A DNA stretch of 37,837 bases from Rhodobiaceae bacterium (lineage in GTDB: Bacteria > Pseudomonadota > Alphaproteobacteria > Puniceispirillales > Puniceispirillaceae): NCBI GenBank assembly GCA_018624035.1, contig JAAZUU010000007.1:1-37837 (forward strand), read 5' to 3'. Below, piece after piece: positions 2,832 through 31,003 of the stretch. Within the stretch, counting starts at the first letter, position 1, and each line of letters starts with the position of its first letter. The translations under genes were made by a program, and so were the position numbers. Under the pieces are notes generated by a model. It was given only the letters and a program-made list of their open reading frames with translations. It searched no databases and was not told where the DNA came from.

Positions 2832-3320
2832 ATGACGCGGCTTGATCTGACTCTTCGTGACCCGGCCGCGACCGAGCGGCTGGGTCATTTCATTGCGGGC
2901 TGGTTGAAGGCCGGCGATGTGGTGGCGCTCGATGGCCCGCTTGGTGCTGGCAAGTCGGTTCTCGCACGCGCGATCATCCGGCATCTCTGCCCGCAGGAAG
3001 ACGATATCCCCAGCCCGACCTTCACGCTGGTGCAGACCTATGAGACGGCTGGGGGCCCGCCTCTCATGCATTTTGATCTCTATCGGCTGGACTCGCCCGA
3101 GGACGCGCTGGAACTCGGGATCGAGGATGCCTTTATCGACGCTGTCTGTCTGATTGAATGGGCGCAGCGCCTTGGCCCCTATCTGCCACGCACCGCGCTG
3201 AATGTCGCCATCGACCCTGGCCCGGACCATGCCGATACACGCACTGTCTCGCTTGTCGGTGGCGCCGGGTGGCAGCCTTTGCTGACCGGTATTGACGCCC
3301 ATATGAAGGATGTGGGCTGA
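2832..3320 (+). CDS. tsaE: tRNA threonylcarbamoyladenosine biosynthesis ATPase TsaE
   Basis: TsaE is the small ATPase that works with TsaB and TsaD to place t6A at position 37 of tRNAs decoding ANN codons. The 162 residues include the P-loop GPLGAGKS (residues 35-42), the switch-like SPTFTLVQTYE, the HFDLYRL motif followed by a short DSPEDALELG segment, and the IEWAQRLGPYLP region, all usual for the family. The start lies five bases after the ahcY stop. In many alphaproteobacteria the genes for an AmgK-type sugar kinase and a MurU-type nucleotidyltransferase sit between tsaE and addB; here addB follows after a 68-base gap, so both are missing from this site. Confidence 0.95.
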   Translation: MTRLDLTLRDPAATERLGHFIAGWLKAGDVVALDGPLGAGKSVLARAIIRHLCPQEDDIPSPTFTLVQTYETAGGPPLMHFDLYRLDSPEDALELGIEDAFIDAVCLIEWAQRLGPYLPRTALNVAIDPGPDHADTRTVSLVGGAGWQPLLTGIDAHMKDVG

Positions 3321-3330
3321 CGGGATTTTG

Positions 3331-3360
3331 AACCGCCTTTCCCCGTTTTGGCGGTGTTTT
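3331..3360 (+). terminator. Possible weak terminator after tsaE, with tandem 11-mer
   Basis: ACCGCC (3332-3337) can pair with GGCGGT (3350-3355) across a 12-base loop, followed by GTTTT. The 11-mer TTTTGGCGGTG occurs twice in tandem, at 3346-3356 and 3357-3367, so the second copy offers a competing right arm. The stem is short and the T-run weak, so termination would be partial at best. Confidence 0.25.
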
Positions 3361-3388
3361 GGCGGTGCGTTGCCTGTATGATTACGGC

Positions 3389-6300
3389 ATGACGTCCGCT
3401 GCCCCCGCGCAAAATCTTCATTCCATCCCCGCAGGTGTGCCCTTTGCCACAACACTTGCCGCCGGCATCGTCGATCTTGCCGGAACGGCCGAAACCCTGG
3501 CGCGGGCCACCATTCTGGTGCCGTCTCGCCGCGCCGCGCTGTCGCTTCGGGCGGCGTTCCTGGAAATCAGGGGTGATGATGCCACCCTGCTGCCACGGAT
3601 CGAGCCGATTGGTGATGTCGAGGAGGATTCGCCTGAAATCCTGGGCTTTGCGGTGGATGGGGCGGCATTGCCGCCAGCCATGGACACGCTGTGCCGACAG
3701 CTCTGGCTGGCGCGGCTCCTGCAGGGATTCCATATGGGCGGCGTGGCCCCGACACCGCCGCAGACCATGCAGCTCGCTGAGTCGCTGACACGGCTTCTCG
3801 ACGCGCTGTGCAATGTCGATTCGACGCCGGAACAGCTTGCAAGCCTTCTTCCCGAACGGTTTTCACGCCACTGGCAGGACATTCTGAAACTTCTGACCAT
3901 CCTGATTGACCGCTGGCCGGCCATTCTTGCCGAACAGGGCGTTCTCGACCCCGGGGACCGGCGCAACAGGCTGATCAGGCTACGCTGTGAGGCCTGGCGC
4001 CGCTCCCCACCGCAGGGGCTGGTGGTGGTGGCGGGTTCGACAGGTACCTTTGCTGCGACGCGCGAGCTGATTGCCTGCGTTGCTTCCCTGCCGAACGGCC
4101 ATGTGGTGTTGCCCGGTCTTGATCACGGGGCTGTCGATCATTGGCCGGAGATCGAGGCTGATGCCGGCCATCCGCAGCATCAGCTCTCGGTGCTTCTTGG
4201 GGTGCTTGGCGTCACGGTGGTCGATATCTCCACCTGGATGGCGGCCGGCTTTGCCGAGGCAGGCCATCTGCGGCGTGAACTGATGCGCGAGGCCTTCAAG
4301 CCGGCGGCCCTCAGCGCGGACTGGCGTCAACTTGGCACTACAAGGCCCGAGCTTGGCCGCGACGCTCTTGACGGCATGTCGATTGTCGAATGCGGCACGC
4401 GGGCCGAGGAGGCGGGGCTGATTGCCGTGGCCATGCGCGAGGTTCTGGAAACGCCGGGCCGCACGGCGGCGCTTGTGACGCCGGACCGGCAGCTTGCCGA
4501 GGCGGTGATCGCGGCGCTGCAACGCTGGCGGATCGAGGTTGATGATTCGGCCGGTCGGCCTCTGTCCGCCTGCCCGGTCGGCGGCTTTCTGCAAAGCATG
4601 ATCACGATGATTGCCGAGGGGTTCGCGCCTGTTCCGACGCTGGCATTCCTGAAACATCCGCTTGTCGCCGGCGGTATGGCGCCAGCCCGGTTCAGGTCAC
4701 ATCTTCGGGGGCTGGAGCTGGCGGCATTGCGCGGGTACCGGCCGGCCGAGGGGCTGGAAGGCATCAGGGACCGGCTGGCCGGTGACGACTCGCTGCTCGG
4801 CTTTTTCGAGTCGCATGTCGTCGCCCCGCTGACCCCGCTGATTGATGCCTGGTCAGCGTCGGCGCCCGACCTCTCGTCGCTGGCACGTGCGACCGGCAGC
4901 GCAGCCGAGGCGCTCGCGGCGCGGCGAAGCGAAGCTGACGGAAGCATCGATCTTGCCGACGGGGCGCTTCATGTCTGGGCCGGCGAGGATGGCGAAGCGG
5001 CGGCGCAGCTGCTTTCCGCCCTGGCTGAACATGGCGCGGTCTATGCTGCCGATCCGGCTTCCTTTCCGCAGATTCTGGCACAGCTGATGGCGTCAAGAAC
5101 GGTGCGCCGCAACTGGCAGACGCATCCCCGGCTTGCCATCCTCGGGCCGGTGGAGGCGCGCATGCAGAGCGCCGACAGACTGATTCTCGGCGGCTTCAAC
5201 GAGGGCAACTGGCCGCCGCGCCCGGACATCGATCCCTGGATGAACGCCGAGATGCGACAGGCCGCCGGCCTGCAGCCGCATAACTGGCGTACCGGGCTGA
5301 GCGCGCATGATGTCTGGATGGCGGCCACGGCGCCGGAGGTGATCATCACCCGCTCGCTGCGTGACGGTGATGCGATAACGACGCCGAGCCGCTGGCTGCA
5401 GAGGCTTGGCGCGGTGCTGGGCGCGCTGAGCATCGATCAGGCCGTTGATGATGGCCGGCGCTGGCGTGACCAGCTTGTCGCGCTGTCACCGGTGCCGCCG
5501 ATGAGGCCCTGCGACCGCCCACGGCCGGCACCGCCCGTCATGGCGCGGCCACGGCGGCTTTCCGCGACCGAGATTGATGACTGGATTGCCGACCCCTACA
5601 GCCTCTATGCCAAGCGGATACTCGGTCTGCGGCAACTTGACGAGATCGACCGGCCAATCGATGCCGCGCTTCGCGGCAATCTTGTTCATGACACGCTGGC
5701 GGCCTTTCTGGTGGCGCACCCGCAGGGCGATCTGCCCGATGACGCGCTTGATCGGTTGCTGGCCATCGGGCGACGGCATTTCGATCCGTTCTGGCGGGTC
5801 CCGACGGTTCGGCATTTCTGGTGGCCGGCCTTTCGCACCATGGCGGCCTGGTTTGTCGAGACCGAGACGCGCCGACGCGCCAGCTTGCAGGTCAGCCATG
5901 CCGAGGTGAAAGGTGCCATCGACGTGGAGGCGCCGGACGGGCCGGTGACATTCACCGCGCGCGCCGACCGGATCGACCGTTTTGCCGGTGGCGGGCTGGC
6001 CGTGCTTGATTACAAGACGGGACAGGCGCCCAGCGCCGGTGATGTGGCGAAGGGGCGGCGAACCCAGCTTGTCACCGAAGCGGTGATCGCCGCGTATGGC
6101 GGTTTTGCCGGAATCGAGGCAGCGGACGTCCTGGAGATGGAATATTGGCGGCTGACCGGAAGGCGCGGTGAGCCCGGATCGCGAAAGCCTGTGCAACCAC
6201 CGGACTGGGATGCCGCCGCGGCGCGGGACAGTCTGGCGCGACTTGCGGCGCGGTTTGATGACCCGGCGATGCCCTATGCCAGCCGGCCGGACCCGCAACT

Positions 6301-9300
6301 GGGTACGGCATTCCCGCTTTATGACCATCTGGCGCGGGTCGATGAATGGCGCATCGGGGAAGCCGGTCCGGTCAATGCCGGTGTGCCGACGATATCGGCA
6401 GACGAAACGCCGGTCACACCCGGCTTTGATCCGGCGGTGGCCAGCGAGGCATCGGCGCAGCAGGCGGCGGCGTCCGACCCCGAAAGCTCGGCTCTGGTGT
6501 CGGCCAATGCGGGAACCGGCAAGACAAAGCTGCTGACCGACCGCGTGTTGCGCCTGATGCTGGACGGAGCGCCGCCGGACAGTATTCTGTGTGTGACCTA
6601 TACACGCGCTGCCGCCGCCGAAATGCGCAACAGAATCTCGGCGCAGCTGGCGAAATGGGCGATCGCAAGTGGTACGGTGCTTCGCGCCCAGCTTGCCGGT
6701 ATGGGGATTGCCACCCCCACCCAGATGATGCTGGCGCGCGCACGAAGCCTGTTCGCCGAAACGCTGGACAATGATGACGGGCCGCGTGTCGAGACGGTCC
6801 ATTCCTTCTGCCAGTCGGTGCTCCGCCGGTTTCCTATCGAAGCCGGGATCATGCCGCAGGCCGAACTTGCGGATGAATTTGAACAGGCCAGGCTGAAATC
6901 CCGGGCACGGGACAATCTGCTGATGGGCTCCGATGCCGATCTCGCGCGGCATATCGCGCTGCTGGCCGAGCAGACCAGCGAGGGCAATGCCGAGACCGTG
7001 CTGAAGGAACTGCTCGCCAAGGAAGATCGTATCGGCGAGCCGCTGTTGCTGGACCGGCTTGAACGGCATTTCACCGAAGCATGCGGGGTCAATACCGGTC
7101 TCGATCTGGACGCGATGATCGCGGAGGTGGTGTCCGGGCTTGATGAGGAGGGGTTGCGCGCCGCCGCCATCGCCCTCGAGACAAGCGGCGTTGACGGGCA
7201 GGTCAGGCGCGGGGCGCGGATCACCGCCTGGCTTGGTGAGACGCTGGAGGGGCGCAGCCGCCATATCAACCGGTTGATTGACGCATTGTTCACCAATGCG
7301 GGACTTCCGCTGGCCGAGCGCAGCCTGTCGAACGCCGGGATCAGGAAGGACTTCCCCGGCATTGTGGCGGTCCAGCAGGCGGCGCAGGACGCGTTGATGT
7401 CGATACAGGCGGCGCGCGCCGCGGTGCGATGCTGGCAATTGACGATGGCGCTCTATCAGGTCGGCACCGCGTTCGCGGCGGAATATGCCAGGCTGAAGGC
7501 GCAGCGGGGACTGCTTGATTATGATGATCTGATCAGCCTGACCAACAACATGCTTGCCAATGGCGAGGCGGCGCAGTGGGTGGCCTGGAAGCTTGACAAT
7601 GGCATCCGCCATATGCTGCTCGACGAGGCGCAGGATACCAGCCCGGCGCAATGGCGGTTGCTGCGCCGCCTGAGCGACGAGTTCTTCGAGCCGGCGGCGG
7701 GCGATGACAGGCCGCGCACCCTGTTTGTGGTCGGTGACTTCAAACAGTCGATCTATTCCTTCCAGGGAGCTGATCCGGCGGTGATGGGGGAAAACCGGCT
7801 TGATTTGCGGCAGCGGGCGGAGACGCGGCGCGCGCCGCTCCGCGAGGTCGGGCTTGATGTGTCCTTCCGTTCGGCGCGGCCGGTGCTTGATCTTGTCAAT
7901 CTTGCCGTGCCCGATCTTGCCGGCATCACCGATCCGCGCATGCCTGGCTTCCAGGCGCATCGCTCGGCCCGCGCCGATGCTGGCGGCTTTGTCGAAATCT
8001 GGCCGGTGATCAGCGATGACAGCGAGGCGCCGGACCTGCCGTCATTCGCCCCGCCCGAGATCAGCCAGCCGCGTGATGCGGCGGCGCTGTCGGCGACCAG
8101 GCTGGCTGAACGGCTTGCCGGCTGGATGGGCACCCGCCTGTTGCCATCCGGGCGGGTCATGCGGGCCGGTGACGTCATGATCCTGCTACGCAAGCGCGGG
8201 CGCTATCACCGGCTTGTGCTGGCGGCATTGCAGCAGGCCGGCATTCCGGTTGCCGGCGCCGACCGGATGAAGCTTGAAGACCAGATCGAGATCAGGGATC
8301 TGCTGGCGCTTGGCGATGTGATGTTGCTTCCCGAGGATGATCTGCAGCTTGCCGCGGTGTTGAAATCACCGCTGTTCGGGCTGGACGAGGAGGCGCTCTT
8401 CACACTGGCCCATGACCGGGGCAAGAGCAGCCTTCACGCGCGACTGATGGCGCATGCCGGTGGTGTGGATGCGATGGGGCGGGCGGCGGATCGCCTGCAG
8501 CATTTCAGGAACCTTGCCGATGACATGTCGGTCTTTGCCTTTTTCAGCGCGGTTCTGACCGAGACGCGGCAGGATTTCCGGCGGCGGCTCGGCGCGGCTG
8601 TTGACGAGACGCTCGACCATTTTCTCGGGCTGGCGCAGAGTTTCGGTGCCGGCGGCGGCGTGGCGCTGACCGTCTTCCTTGCCGAGCTGCGTGGCAGTGG
8701 CGGCGAGGTGCGCCGCGATATGGACGGCGCTGCCGCCAACGAGGTGCGGGTGATGACGATCCATGGCGCGAAGGGGCTGGAAGCGCCGGTGGTCGTTCTT
8801 CCCGACATGCTGAAACCGGCCGGTGTGGCTGATCAGCTGGTGCGCGACCCTGACAGCGGCTTTGTCTATTGGGCACCCGGCGCGGCGCGTCCGGATTTTG
8901 TCACCGCCGTCCGAGAGGCCGCAGGTCAGCGGGACCGGGAAGAGGAGAACAGGCTGCTTTATGTCGCGCTGACCCGGGCCCGTGACGGCATCATCATCGG
9001 CGGCTGGCAGGCATCGCGTCGCCGGCGTCTGGAGGGCAGCTATTACGAGCATCTGCTGGCCATGATCGAATCCATGCCCGGGGTAGTCGCCATCGAGGGT
9101 GGCGGGCTTCGTGTCGAAACCGCCGGCAAGGTGGAAGCCGGCCCAGCCGGCCTGCCGACCCCGCCGCGCGAGGAGGCGACAGAAGAGATTCCAGGCTGGC
9201 TGTTCCATGCCGCGCCAGCCGAACCGCGTCCGCCCCGTCCGTTGCGCCCCTCGGTGCCGGATGGCGCTGCCAGCGCCGCAGCCGCGCCCGGGACGCGCTT

Positions 9301-9817
9301 TATCTCCGCCACCACGGCACTGGCACGCGGCCGTCTGGCGCACCGCATGTTCGAGGTGTTGCCGCATCTGCCAGCCGATCGGCACGATGCTGTCATCGCG
9401 GCGATGATTGAGGCGCAGAAGGAGTTGTCGGCGGAGGCCGCCATGGCGCTCGCCACCGAGGTCAGGCATGTGGTGGCAATGCCGGAACTGGCGGCGCTAT
9501 TCGGCCCTGACGCGCTTGCCGAGATTTCGGTCAGCGGCCTGGTGCAGGGGTTGGGTGTCGCTGGCCAGATCGACCGGCTGCATGTCGATTCGACGCGTGT
9601 GTTGATCGGCGATTTCAAGACCGGGCCACGGCCTGCCACAACGCCGGATGCCTATGTCAGGCAGATGGCGCTCTATGGTGCGTTGATGGCACAAATCTAT
9701 CCGCAGCATGAGATTGTGACATGGCTGATCTGGACCGAGGTAGCAGCGGTCGAGGCGGTTGCCCCGGCGGCGCGCGATGCGGCGCTGGCGGCACTTGCCG
9801 GTGAGTCCACGCCTTGA
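3389..9817 (+). CDS. addAB: Fused AddB-AddA helicase-nuclease
   Basis: A single 2142-residue frame carries both subunits of the AddAB double-strand-break resection complex, which unwinds and degrades DNA ends before RecA loading. Residues 1 to about 985 are alphaproteobacterial-type AddB: helicase-like N-terminus and a C-terminal RecB-family nuclease with RADRIDR and VLDYKTG (Asp874, Lys876), ending YDHLARVDEW. After about 20-30 linker residues comes AddA: Walker A NAGTGKTK (1040-1047), DEAQDT (from 1412), GDFKQSIYSFQG (from 1449), TIHGAKGLE (His1792), LLYVALTRAR (from 1856), then a second nuclease with IGDFKTG (Asp2075, Lys2077). All key motifs are intact in both halves. These are normally two adjacent genes. 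I chose ATG 3389 over an upstream in-frame TTG at 3359 because AddB homology begins there. trxA follows, as usual for this block. Confidence 0.93.
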   Translation: MTSAAPAQNLHSIPAGVPFATTLAAGIVDLAGTAETLARATILVPSRRAALSLRAAFLEIRGDDATLLPRIEPIGDVEEDSPEILGFAVDGAALPPAMDTLCRQLWLARLLQGFHMGGVAPTPPQTMQLAESLTRLLDALCNVDSTPEQLASLLPERFSRHWQDILKLLTILIDRWPAILAEQGVLDPGDRRNRLIRLRCEAWRRSPPQGLVVVAGSTGTFAATRELIACVASLPNGHVVLPGLDHGAVDHWPEIEADAGHPQHQLSVLLGVLGVTVVDISTWMAAGFAEAGHLRRELMREAFKPAALSADWRQLGTTRPELGRDALDGMSIVECGTRAEEAGLIAVAMREVLETPGRTAALVTPDRQLAEAVIAALQRWRIEVDDSAGRPLSACPVGGFLQSMITMIAEGFAPVPTLAFLKHPLVAGGMAPARFRSHLRGLELAALRGYRPAEGLEGIRDRLAGDDSLLGFFESHVVAPLTPLIDAWSASAPDLSSLARATGSAAEALAARRSEADGSIDLADGALHVWAGEDGEAAAQLLSALAEHGAVYAADPASFPQILAQLMASRTVRRNWQTHPRLAILGPVEARMQSADRLILGGFNEGNWPPRPDIDPWMNAEMRQAAGLQPHNWRTGLSAHDVWMAATAPEVIITRSLRDGDAITTPSRWLQRLGAVLGALSIDQAVDDGRRWRDQLVALSPVPPMRPCDRPRPAPPVMARPRRLSATEIDDWIADPYSLYAKRILGLRQLDEIDRPIDAALRGNLVHDTLAAFLVAHPQGDLPDDALDRLLAIGRRHFDPFWRVPTVRHFWWPAFRTMAAWFVETETRRRASLQVSHAEVKGAIDVEAPDGPVTFTARADRIDRFAGGGLAVLDYKTGQAPSAGDVAKGRRTQLVTEAVIAAYGGFAGIEAADVLEMEYWRLTGRRGEPGSRKPVQPPDWDAAAARDSLARLAARFDDPAMPYASRPDPQLGTAFPLYDHLARVDEWRIGEAGPVNAGVPTISADETPVTPGFDPAVASEASAQQAAASDPESSALVSANAGTGKTKLLTDRVLRLMLDGAPPDSILCVTYTRAAAAEMRNRISAQLAKWAIASGTVLRAQLAGMGIATPTQMMLARARSLFAETLDNDDGPRVETVHSFCQSVLRRFPIEAGIMPQAELADEFEQARLKSRARDNLLMGSDADLARHIALLAEQTSEGNAETVLKELLAKEDRIGEPLLLDRLERHFTEACGVNTGLDLDAMIAEVVSGLDEEGLRAAAIALETSGVDGQVRRGARITAWLGETLEGRSRHINRLIDALFTNAGLPLAERSLSNAGIRKDFPGIVAVQQAAQDALMSIQAARAAVRCWQLTMALYQVGTAFAAEYARLKAQRGLLDYDDLISLTNNMLANGEAAQWVAWKLDNGIRHMLLDEAQDTSPAQWRLLRRLSDEFFEPAAGDDRPRTLFVVGDFKQSIYSFQGADPAVMGENRLDLRQRAETRRAPLREVGLDVSFRSARPVLDLVNLAVPDLAGITDPRMPGFQAHRSARADAGGFVEIWPVISDDSEAPDLPSFAPPEISQPRDAAALSATRLAERLAGWMGTRLLPSGRVMRAGDVMILLRKRGRYHRLVLAALQQAGIPVAGADRMKLEDQIEIRDLLALGDVMLLPEDDLQLAAVLKSPLFGLDEEALFTLAHDRGKSSLHARLMAHAGGVDAMGRAADRLQHFRNLADDMSVFAFFSAVLTETRQDFRRRLGAAVDETLDHFLGLAQSFGAGGGVALTVFLAELRGSGGEVRRDMDGAAANEVRVMTIHGAKGLEAPVVVLPDMLKPAGVADQLVRDPDSGFVYWAPGAARPDFVTAVREAAGQRDREEENRLLYVALTRARDGIIIGGWQASRRRRLEGSYYEHLLAMIESMPGVVAIEGGGLRVETAGKVEAGPAGLPTPPREEATEEIPGWLFHAAPAEPRPPRPLRPSVPDGAASAAAAPGTRFISATTALARGRLAHRMFEVLPHLPADRHDAVIAAMIEAQKELSAEAAMALATEVRHVVAMPELAALFGPDALAEISVSGLVQGLGVAGQIDRLHVDSTRVLIGDFKTGPRPATTPDAYVRQMALYGALMAQIYPQHEIVTWLIWTEVAAVEAVAPAARDAALAALAGESTP

Positions 9818-9891: not shown

Positions 9892-10215
9892 ATGGCGACG
9901 ACGAAGACAACCGACAGTGATTTTTCTGCCGACGTCCTGCAGGCTGATGGGCCTGTGCTTGTTGATTTCTGGGCAGAATGGTGCGGCCCCTGCAAGGCCA
10001 TCGGACCGGCGCTCGAGGAACTCAGCGACGCGCATGGCGAAGCCATCTCGATCGTCAAGCTGAACATCGATGAGAATCCGCTGACCCCGCAGCAATATAA
10101 TGTCCGGGGCATCCCCACCCTGCTGATTTTCAAGGGTGGCGAGGTGGTTGCCGAGAAGATCGGCGCGGTGCCGAAGTCACAGCTCGAGGCGTGGATCACC
10201 AGCACCATCGCCTGA
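9892..10215 (+). CDS. trxA: Thioredoxin
   Basis: This is a cytosolic thioredoxin of 107 residues, the standard length, which reduces protein disulfides such as those of ribonucleotide reductase. The redox motif WCGPC is at residues 30-34 with Asp25 ahead of it, and the cis-proline segment GIPTLLIFKGG follows in the usual place. The start ATG at 9892 follows a good ribosome binding site (AAGGGGG, about nine bases upstream), which decides it over an in-frame start at 9814 that would overlap addAB. It is convergent with folC, with only 19 bases between the stops. The trxA position next to addA is the common alphaproteobacterial arrangement. Confidence 0.97.
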   Translation: MATTKTTDSDFSADVLQADGPVLVDFWAEWCGPCKAIGPALEELSDAHGEAISIVKLNIDENPLTPQQYNVRGIPTLLIFKGGEVVAEKIGAVPKSQLEAWITSTIA

Positions 10216-28699: not shown

Positions 28700-29054
28700 G
28701 GCCGCCAATATCGCTGGCAGACGGCTCACGGCCCGCGATTCTGCATAGTGGTCATGTGGTAGGCTAAGGGAAACGTCTGCAACGGTGAAAGTCGCGCATC
28801 TGAAGAAGACATCTCCGACCGAGGCGCGGCAGGCCGGTACCTTGATGCTCCGGCGGGATGACGTCTTCGGCTTTGGACGACTGGCAGGCGCGTCTTTGCA
28901 ATTTGTTTCAATCTTCTGACATTCTGCAAATTTCAAGCGGCGGATTACACCATTTGCAGCCTTTGAATGGCTGCTGAAATGACCGATGCTGTACGGCCAT
29001 CAAGGCGTCGGTCTGTTCGCGGAACGCTCAGACCGTCTTTACAGGTTTTGGATC
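28700..29054 (+). other. Long leader region before the inverse autotransporter gene
   Basis: These 355 bases carry no convincing gene. A 39-codon frame (28858-28977) after a CGGCGGG stretch is possible but has no recognisable features. The sequences TTTGCA/TGCAAA recur three times around 28898-28960. Just before the barrel gene lies a hairpin described separately. I find no clear promoter. Confidence 0.4.
29009..29035 (+). promoter_or_regulatory. Hairpin 19 bases before the barrel gene start
   Basis: CGGTCTG (29009-29015) pairs perfectly with CAGACCG (29029-29035); inside the loop TTC and GAA can add a short inner stem. TCTTT follows directly and the ATG is at 29055. It could act as an attenuator, an end signal for the preceding operon, or a control of translation start. 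Confidence 0.45.
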
Positions 29055-30035
29055 ATGCGTTTTGCCTTATATCTGGTTTGTTCGAGCTTCCTGGTCCTTC
29101 CGGTAAAGCTTGCGGCTGAAAGTTCCGTCTCGCCATCGCAACTTCCATCGACCGTGAAGTCGCTGGCAACAGCGGCCGAACAGGACAGGTTCGAGCTGGC
29201 GGCGGCGAATGAACTGGCCCGGGCCGCGCTGAACGAGGCGAATGCGCAGCTGGACAAGGTCGAGGACGGTATTCTGTCGACGACCAATTTCACGCATCTC
29301 GACATCAGGTTGGGCTCCGACAGTTTCGGGCTTGATACCGGCACCAAGACCAAGACCGAGATCATCTCCACCCTGCGCCTTCGCGAGACCGCGAACGGGT
29401 TCCTGTTCAACCAGACATCCATTGTCGATTTCGATGACCGGACGACGGTGAATTTCGGACTTGGCTATCGGAATATCAATGACGCCGACACGGTGATTGT
29501 TGGGATCAACGGATTTTATGATTACGAGCTGGACGCCAAACACCGCCGTACAGGCATGGGTGTGGAATATCTCACCTCGCTGGCCGAGTTCCGCTACAAC
29601 AGCTACAAGGCGCAGAGCAACACCCGCCTGCACAAAGGCATCAATGAAAGCGCGCTCGATGGCAATGACTACAAATTGACAGGGAACCTTCCCTATTTCT
29701 ACGCCTCGGATGTGTATTACAACCGCGCCAAATGGAAGGACGGTGCCGGCTATAAGGTCACGCAGAAGGAATGGGGACTGACCGCCGAAATCATTCCGAA
29801 CGTGACGATGGCGGCCGCCAGACAGCAGACAAACAGTGGCAAGCGGTCATCCACGACTTCCATTTCCTACGCCATTCCGCTTGGCGGACCGGCGCTGGCG
29901 CCACGCGAGATGCAGGACGGATCATGGACAACGCGACTCAAGCCTATCCGCGACCAGCTCTACAGGCCTGTCGAACGCGAGAACAGGATCATGAAAAAAG
30001 CGCTTAAGCTTGGCGTCGTGGTGAGCGGGTATTGA
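29055..30035 (+). CDS. Inverse autotransporter beta-barrel protein without passenger
   Basis: The 326-residue protein has a signal peptide (hydrophobic 3-17, cleavage near Ala21) followed by a short Ala-rich helix and an intimin/invasin-type beta-barrel (type Ve secretion). Family features are alternating strands, FNQTSIVDFDDRTTVNFGLGYR, VGINGFYDYELDAKHRRTGMGVEYL (around residues 148-172), a plug-like GLTAEIIPNVTMAAARQQ strand pair, and the closing PVERENRI motif. In intimins this motif leads into an exported passenger; here the protein ends about 20 residues later, so it is a barrel alone. I chose ATG 29055 because the signal peptide begins there; an in-frame ATG at 28986 would bury it. It overlaps the next gene by one base. 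Confidence 0.85.
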   Translation: MRFALYLVCSSFLVLPVKLAAESSVSPSQLPSTVKSLATAAEQDRFELAAANELARAALNEANAQLDKVEDGILSTTNFTHLDIRLGSDSFGLDTGTKTKTEIISTLRLRETANGFLFNQTSIVDFDDRTTVNFGLGYRNINDADTVIVGINGFYDYELDAKHRRTGMGVEYLTSLAEFRYNSYKAQSNTRLHKGINESALDGNDYKLTGNLPYFYASDVYYNRAKWKDGAGYKVTQKEWGLTAEIIPNVTMAAARQQTNSGKRSSTTSISYAIPLGGPALAPREMQDGSWTTRLKPIRDQLYRPVERENRIMKKALKLGVVVSGY

Positions 30036-31003
30036 TGATGAAAAACGCGATCAGAATCCTGGCTGTCCTGCTGAGCTGTCTCGGTGTTGTCAACGCGGCG
30101 AAGGCACAGACGAGCGTCGCCTATTCAGGCTCGGGTGATCCTGTTGACTGCCCGACGGCAAGTGGTGGCGGGGTCGCGGCGATTTCTGTTGCCGACGGGA
30201 CCCGTGCGAACCGGGCGCGCTGCGTGACCGATCTCGACAAGTTCAAGATTGACATCTACAAGATCGGCATCTGCCGGTCCGCGCCGGACAGCACGAATCC
30301 GGCCAGTGACTGGTCAGGCAAATGTGCGTTCATTCTTGACCGGACAACAGCGCTCGAAACCGAACTTACAACGACGACTTCCGTCGACCTCGCCAGCTAT
30401 GTCGATCTCAGCACCCTGACCGAGGGGACTTATACACACGCCGTTCTGTTGATCGGCAACACCATGTACAGTCAGATGCGCAAGCAGTTCGCGCAGACCT
30501 TCATGGGACGCACCGGCGTGGGAAGCTATTGCTACAGCATTGACGGGGCAGAGTATCTGGACAACCGTCCGACACGTGCCCAACTCGCCACCGAATGCGT
30601 CGCCAATGAAGCCGCCATGGATGCGGCTGGCAATCACGGCTACATGGCGCGCACGCAGGTCAATTTCAACGGCTCGGTCTCGAAGACCGCCGGTGATGGC
30701 GCGAATGTCTTCCTGATGGCGGATGCGACCACCCTGGCGACACTTACGTCGTCCTCGTCGGACGCAACGAGGCTGGCAGGCGTGATCACGTTCGACACTT
30801 CCAAGGTCATCTCGGCGAATACCGTCAGTGTCAATCTTGGCTTCCAGCTGACCGATCAGGGGCAGGTGCAATTCTCGACAAGCAGCGGCGGGTCGGGCGA
30901 ATGCGATGCCACAGACCGCGCGGCGGCGGATTCAACCAGCACCGTCGCGTGCATCAATGCCATGCGCAACTACGGTGTCGGGTTCCGGTTCACCGTGCAA
31001 TAG
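30035..31003 (+). CDS. Secreted cysteine-containing protein coupled to the barrel gene
   Basis: I do not recognise this 322-residue protein. It begins with a clear signal peptide (hydrophobic stretch about 5-19, cleavage after AKA near residue 24). The mature part has eight cysteines spread along its length, suggesting disulfides in an oxidising compartment. It is rich in Ser, Thr and Ala, with strand-like segments such as FKIDIYKIGIC and GTYTHAVLLIG. The end, NYGVGFRFTVQ, looks like a final beta strand. The start ATG at 30035 shares its A with the barrel gene stop (TGATG); an ATG three bases on is equally possible. The coupling suggests the barrel and this protein work together, perhaps as a separated partner or passenger. 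That role is inference. Confidence 0.7.
   Translation: MMKNAIRILAVLLSCLGVVNAAKAQTSVAYSGSGDPVDCPTASGGGVAAISVADGTRANRARCVTDLDKFKIDIYKIGICRSAPDSTNPASDWSGKCAFILDRTTALETELTTTTSVDLASYVDLSTLTEGTYTHAVLLIGNTMYSQMRKQFAQTFMGRTGVGSYCYSIDGAEYLDNRPTRAQLATECVANEAAMDAAGNHGYMARTQVNFNGSVSKTAGDGANVFLMADATTLATLTSSSSDATRLAGVITFDTSKVISANTVSVNLGFQLTDQGQVQFSTSSGGSGECDATDRAAADSTSTVACINAMRNYGVGFRFTVQ

Follow-up and report, generated by a model that had tools for sequence, protein, structure and literature searches.

The question raised by this locus is whether AddB and AddA, which usually are two polypeptides, are encoded as one in a 37,837-nucleotide contig stretch (hereafter, the window) of a Rhodobiaceae bacterium (GenBank contig JAAZUU010000007.1), as had been proposed by an earlier, sequence-only reading of this DNA. 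The translation of the window confirmed the claimed one-frame fusion: from the ATG at 3389 (an in-frame TTG lies upstream, at 3359) to the TGA at 9815-9817 there are 2142 codons with zero internal stops, and the usual two-polypeptide arrangement is replaced by a single unbroken frame. Both halves were matched over their full profiles and above the curated NCBIfam cut-offs, i.e., by the alpha-type AddB model TIGR02786 with 841.8 bits (cut-off 486.5 bits; residues 10-988, profile positions 2-1024 of 1024) and by the alpha-type AddA model TIGR02784 with 928.5 bits (cut-off 860.75 bits; residues 1024-2121, profile positions 2-1135 of 1138). The features of the locus are summarized in Table 1.

Table 1. 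Features of the addBA locus and its conserved neighbours (positions within the window)
Feature	Position	Strand	Residues	Basis or remark
tsaE, conserved upstream neighbour	2832..3320	+		PF02367, synteny
addBA, fused AddB-AddA ORF	3389..9817	+	2142 aa	TGA stop
AddB half: helicase-like region and C-terminal PD-(D/E)XK nuclease	3389..6352	+	1-988	TIGR02786
AddB PD-(D/E)XK nuclease domain	5555..6280	+	723-964	PF12705
Linker between the profile matches	6353..6457	+	989-1023	length and sequence vary; disorder predicted
AddA half: SF1 helicase and C-terminal nuclease	6458..9751	+	1024-2121	TIGR02784
AddA Walker A, AGTGKT	6509..6526	+	1041-1046	sequence, motif alignment
AddA nuclease motif, GDFKTG	9608..9625	+	2074-2079	sequence, motif alignment
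trxA (thioredoxin), conserved downstream neighbour	9892..10215	+		PF00085, synteny; start read from sequence

The nuclease motifs of both halves and the complete set of AddA helicase motifs, which the sequence-only reading had listed, were found in the protein, as was the decapeptide YDHLARVDEW at the end of AddB (6320-6349). Each half carries its own PD-(D/E)XK nuclease active site, that of AddB with the motifs GNLVHDT at residue 763 and LDYKTG at residue 873 (their cores are kept in 16 fusions), and the SF1 helicase motifs I-VI of AddA are intact; the AddB nuclease and AddA helicase domains were both matched by Pfam as well. The catalytic cores are intact in all of the 16 full-length fusions compared, save for a Walker A variant, AGAGKT, in one of them (G299). 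No second AddA or AddB copy was found in the window's genome, where the sole other match to the fused protein was a weak one to a UvrD-type helicase (33 bits), and RecC (TIGR01450) was not matched in seven fused genomes, with a positive E. coli control. The fused gene therefore appears to be the only source of an AddAB/RecBCD-type enzyme.

The window belongs to a genus of ocean bacteria of the SAR116 clade, 12 genomes of which were searched. The gene was found in 11 of them (eight copies of full length and three, in G007, G009 and G011, on broken contigs), and in all 11 the junction is read through without a stop; the twelfth genome (G005), in which no addAB was found, is 58% complete. The full-length copies share 61-93% identity and come from several independent assemblies. 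With dS values among the genus members from 0.3 to about 1, both halves showed dN/dS of about 0.10-0.19, i.e., purifying selection. This survey supports the view that the frame is a genuine in-frame AddB-AddA fusion, fixed across the genus.

Sister genera of the same family carry two genes, in most cases with the addA start lying a few bases before the addB stop at an offset of one frame. In several of them a GGAGG-like addA ribosome site could be read within the last addB codons, and the addA frame is open for 19-118 codons upstream of Walker A. Whether their two genes are fused or split, members of the family share the gene order rapZ-ahcY-tsaE-addB-addA-trxA-folC-accD-trpA, which indicates that the fusion arose in place. 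When the two forms were aligned, the old addA start fell on the D of FDP/IDP in the window's genus, and the stretch from the end of AddB to Walker A turned out to be longer by roughly two dozen codons in the fused genus; the addB stop, the addA start and the addA ribosome site of the split form are gone. A stop between the halves, which had been named as a finding that would speak against the fusion, occurs only beyond the genus, in relatives that have separate genes, and in no copy within it. In the window, addBA comes directly after tsaE, and amgK and murU, which lie between tsaE and addB in other Alphaproteobacteria, are absent from the intervening 3321-3388. In one split-gene relative (G456, loci L044 and L094), the reading frame of addA shifts after about 200 codons and the gene is thereby interrupted, which reflects either an error or decay.

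The layout of the sister genera bears directly on whether the join could be an artefact of sequencing or assembly. It had been argued that an assembly indel would break such a frame and not join it; this was wrong, as overlapping genes lying out of frame can be joined by one indel and, the addA frame being open upstream of its start, a single false indel before the addB stop would be enough. The artefact is excluded by the relatives and not by that argument: 11 genomes of the genus, the products of several separate assembly projects, share the join, and the spacing was rewritten by added linker sequence and not by one base, which leaves this explanation a practically negligible probability. 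It is rather improbable, too, that the gene is fused and the working enzyme still consists of two proteins, released by cleavage of the linker or by an internal start of AddA. The linker is poorly conserved and predicted to be disordered, as a cleavable site could be: about 26 of the 35 residues between the profile ends (989-1023) form its variable part (20-30 residues had been claimed earlier), it evolves faster than both halves (always in frame) in the genus comparison, and the structure prediction gave pLDDT of about 30-43 across most of residues 964-1022. Several in-frame GTG or ATG codons lie within it. Yet no Shine-Dalgarno-like sequence was found before any in-frame start between the end of AddB and Walker A in the eight full-length copies of the genus, and neither the ribosome site nor the ATG position of the ancestor has been retained. 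The GTG at 6383, which had been pointed out as an in-frame candidate without a clear ribosome site, fits that description and is not conserved (it is present in G000 and G002, and absent at that place in G001, G010, G008, G004 and G003), while the GTG at residue 1017, recurrent in several members of the genus, is a valine codon at the edge of AddA, again without a ribosome site. Separate subunits could still arise by proteolysis or by weak initiation within the frame.

The sequence-only reading had suggested a search for other proteins carrying both profiles and forming a clade; the fusions of the genus do form one, and an independent parallel exists in a second alphaproteobacterial family (f38). 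Its own fusion was detected in all five genera sampled, the 16 genomes comprising eight with full-length fusions, four with copies on partial contigs or with broken frames, and four without any AddAB match. When both halves were used to build a tree, the two fused groups came out as distinct clades with supports of 100 and 99, and forcing all fused rows together was rejected by the AU test (dlnL 1194, p-AU 1e-56), the tree being a quick one under a single-matrix model with uneven composition flagged. As estimated in this way, a single origin of the genus and f38 fusions is rejected in favour of two independent origins. Within f38, one genus (g50; G425, G428, G429, G430 and G432) includes four genomes, 97-98% complete, without an AddBA match, and in G432 the fused gene is in three pieces with a TGA. 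The absent or broken addBA of g50 suggests that some species have lost the enzyme or are losing it by decay.

The wider distribution was screened with a 604-residue junction query. Among the matches listed for 289 genomes of the class, an unbroken join was present only in the window and three f38 genomes, and no further one was found among those listed for 398 genomes of the phylum, samples in which, with only the top matches listed, weak-scoring fusions could be missed. Contiguous matches in four other families (L127 of G147, L128 of G256, L129 of G152 and L130 of G323) were rejected as fusions, addB and addA being there in the same frame and split by a single stop; as read from their sequences, these pairs are one substitution away from a fusion. 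A contiguous match in G209 was rejected as well because of three stops between the halves, and so was a 2226-codon open frame in G068, where AddB lies in another frame. No relative was found in viral contigs, and in a phage collection 44 records were matched, none of them across 80% of the query.

Apart from being one chain, the protein is AddAB by every test applied. It shares with the two-gene alphaproteobacterial AddAB the full-length match of both halves and the same neighbour genes, and differs from it in forming one chain with a new linker. The window AddB showed, on inspection, neither a GKT-type Walker A near the N-terminus nor a C-terminal cysteine cluster, features that only some AddB proteins have. 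Mycobacterial AdnAB and E. coli RecBCD belong to the same enzyme class, but are built of separate subunits and have a second active motor (AdnA/RecD), and RecBCD includes the RecC subunit that was not found in the seven fused genomes. A predicted model of residues 690-1889 (1200 residues; pLDDT 70, pTM 0.56) is of moderate confidence, with the docking of the halves not established; it shows ordered AddB nuclease and AddA motor regions with a low-confidence stretch around the linker between them. The best Foldseek matches were the AddA chains of Bacillus subtilis AddAB (PDB 3U44, 4CEH-4CEJ), an enzyme of two proteins whose likeness to the single window chain lies in the AddA motor region, and the AddB nuclease region aligned with a region of AdnA (6PPU_A; Z 15.1, rmsd 3.9, 225 residues). 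Helicase and nuclease are also combined in one chain in Dna2 and bacterial Bad (PMC7430649), which have one helicase and one nuclease module, whereas the window chain has two nucleases, one motor and one helicase-like region derived from two former subunits.

Taken together, these data make it very probable that the locus encodes a natural single-chain helicase-nuclease of the AddAB type, born of a real gene fusion. As described for studied AddAB enzymes (PMC4824097), the N-terminal helicase-like region of AddB is the hotspot scanner, and the two strands are acted on by nuclease domains that follow the AddA motor; the fused chain matches all of these parts (the helicase-like region, the motor and two nucleases), and we infer that it forms the normal complex within one molecule, with the parts fixed at 1:1. 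Ancestrally, addB and addA would have overlapped in different frames, the end of addB containing the ribosome site of addA. In the common ancestor of the genus, a shift of frame within the overlap and the addition of sequence would then have removed both the addB stop and the addA start and left the parts joined by a flexible linker, the extra sequence of which must have come with the joining indel or after it; the states before and after are taken from comparison, and we infer the order of the steps. Co-translational folding most probably brings the chain into the usual arrangement of AddAB, in which the AddA part would unwind DNA and cut one strand, and the AddB part would contribute a scanner-like helicase-related domain and the second nuclease, in line with the role of AddAB, which trims the ends of broken DNA ahead of RecA-dependent repair. 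The 1:1 ratio of the parts, formerly kept by overlap-coupled translation, would now be secured by the fusion.

Such a single-chain enzyme is also compatible with a neutral accident, which differs only on whether the tether matters: the overlapping heterodimer genes may have drifted into one frame with the working and control of the enzyme unchanged. We consider this a serious possibility, if somewhat short of an even chance, given that the sister-genus genes overlap by only a few bases and that the step is a short one, since in four other families just one stop codon divides two genes that share a frame. Against it stands the retention of the fusion in all carriers of both fused clades found, a point weakened by those f38 species that have no copy of the gene or a broken one. 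It seems unlikely that the tether alters assembly, processivity or the response to hotspots in comparison with two-subunit AddAB and was selected twice independently.

The joining of adjacent subunit genes is a familiar evolutionary event, which limits the surprise. The case is nevertheless worth recording: a core repair enzyme was fused twice independently, and no report of a natural AddA-AddB fusion was found in the open-access literature searched. If made as one chain, the protein would be a natural single-polypeptide AddAB that has arisen twice independently, and would offer ready material for single-chain structural and single-molecule work and for testing whether end resection depends on the stoichiometry or exchange of subunits. 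The case also exemplifies how an overlapping gene pair may become one gene. Elsewhere in the window, a 323-aa frame without a Pfam match (30032-31003) directly follows a stand-alone inverse-autotransporter beta-barrel of 349 aa (PF11924), encoded on the forward strand at 28986-30035.
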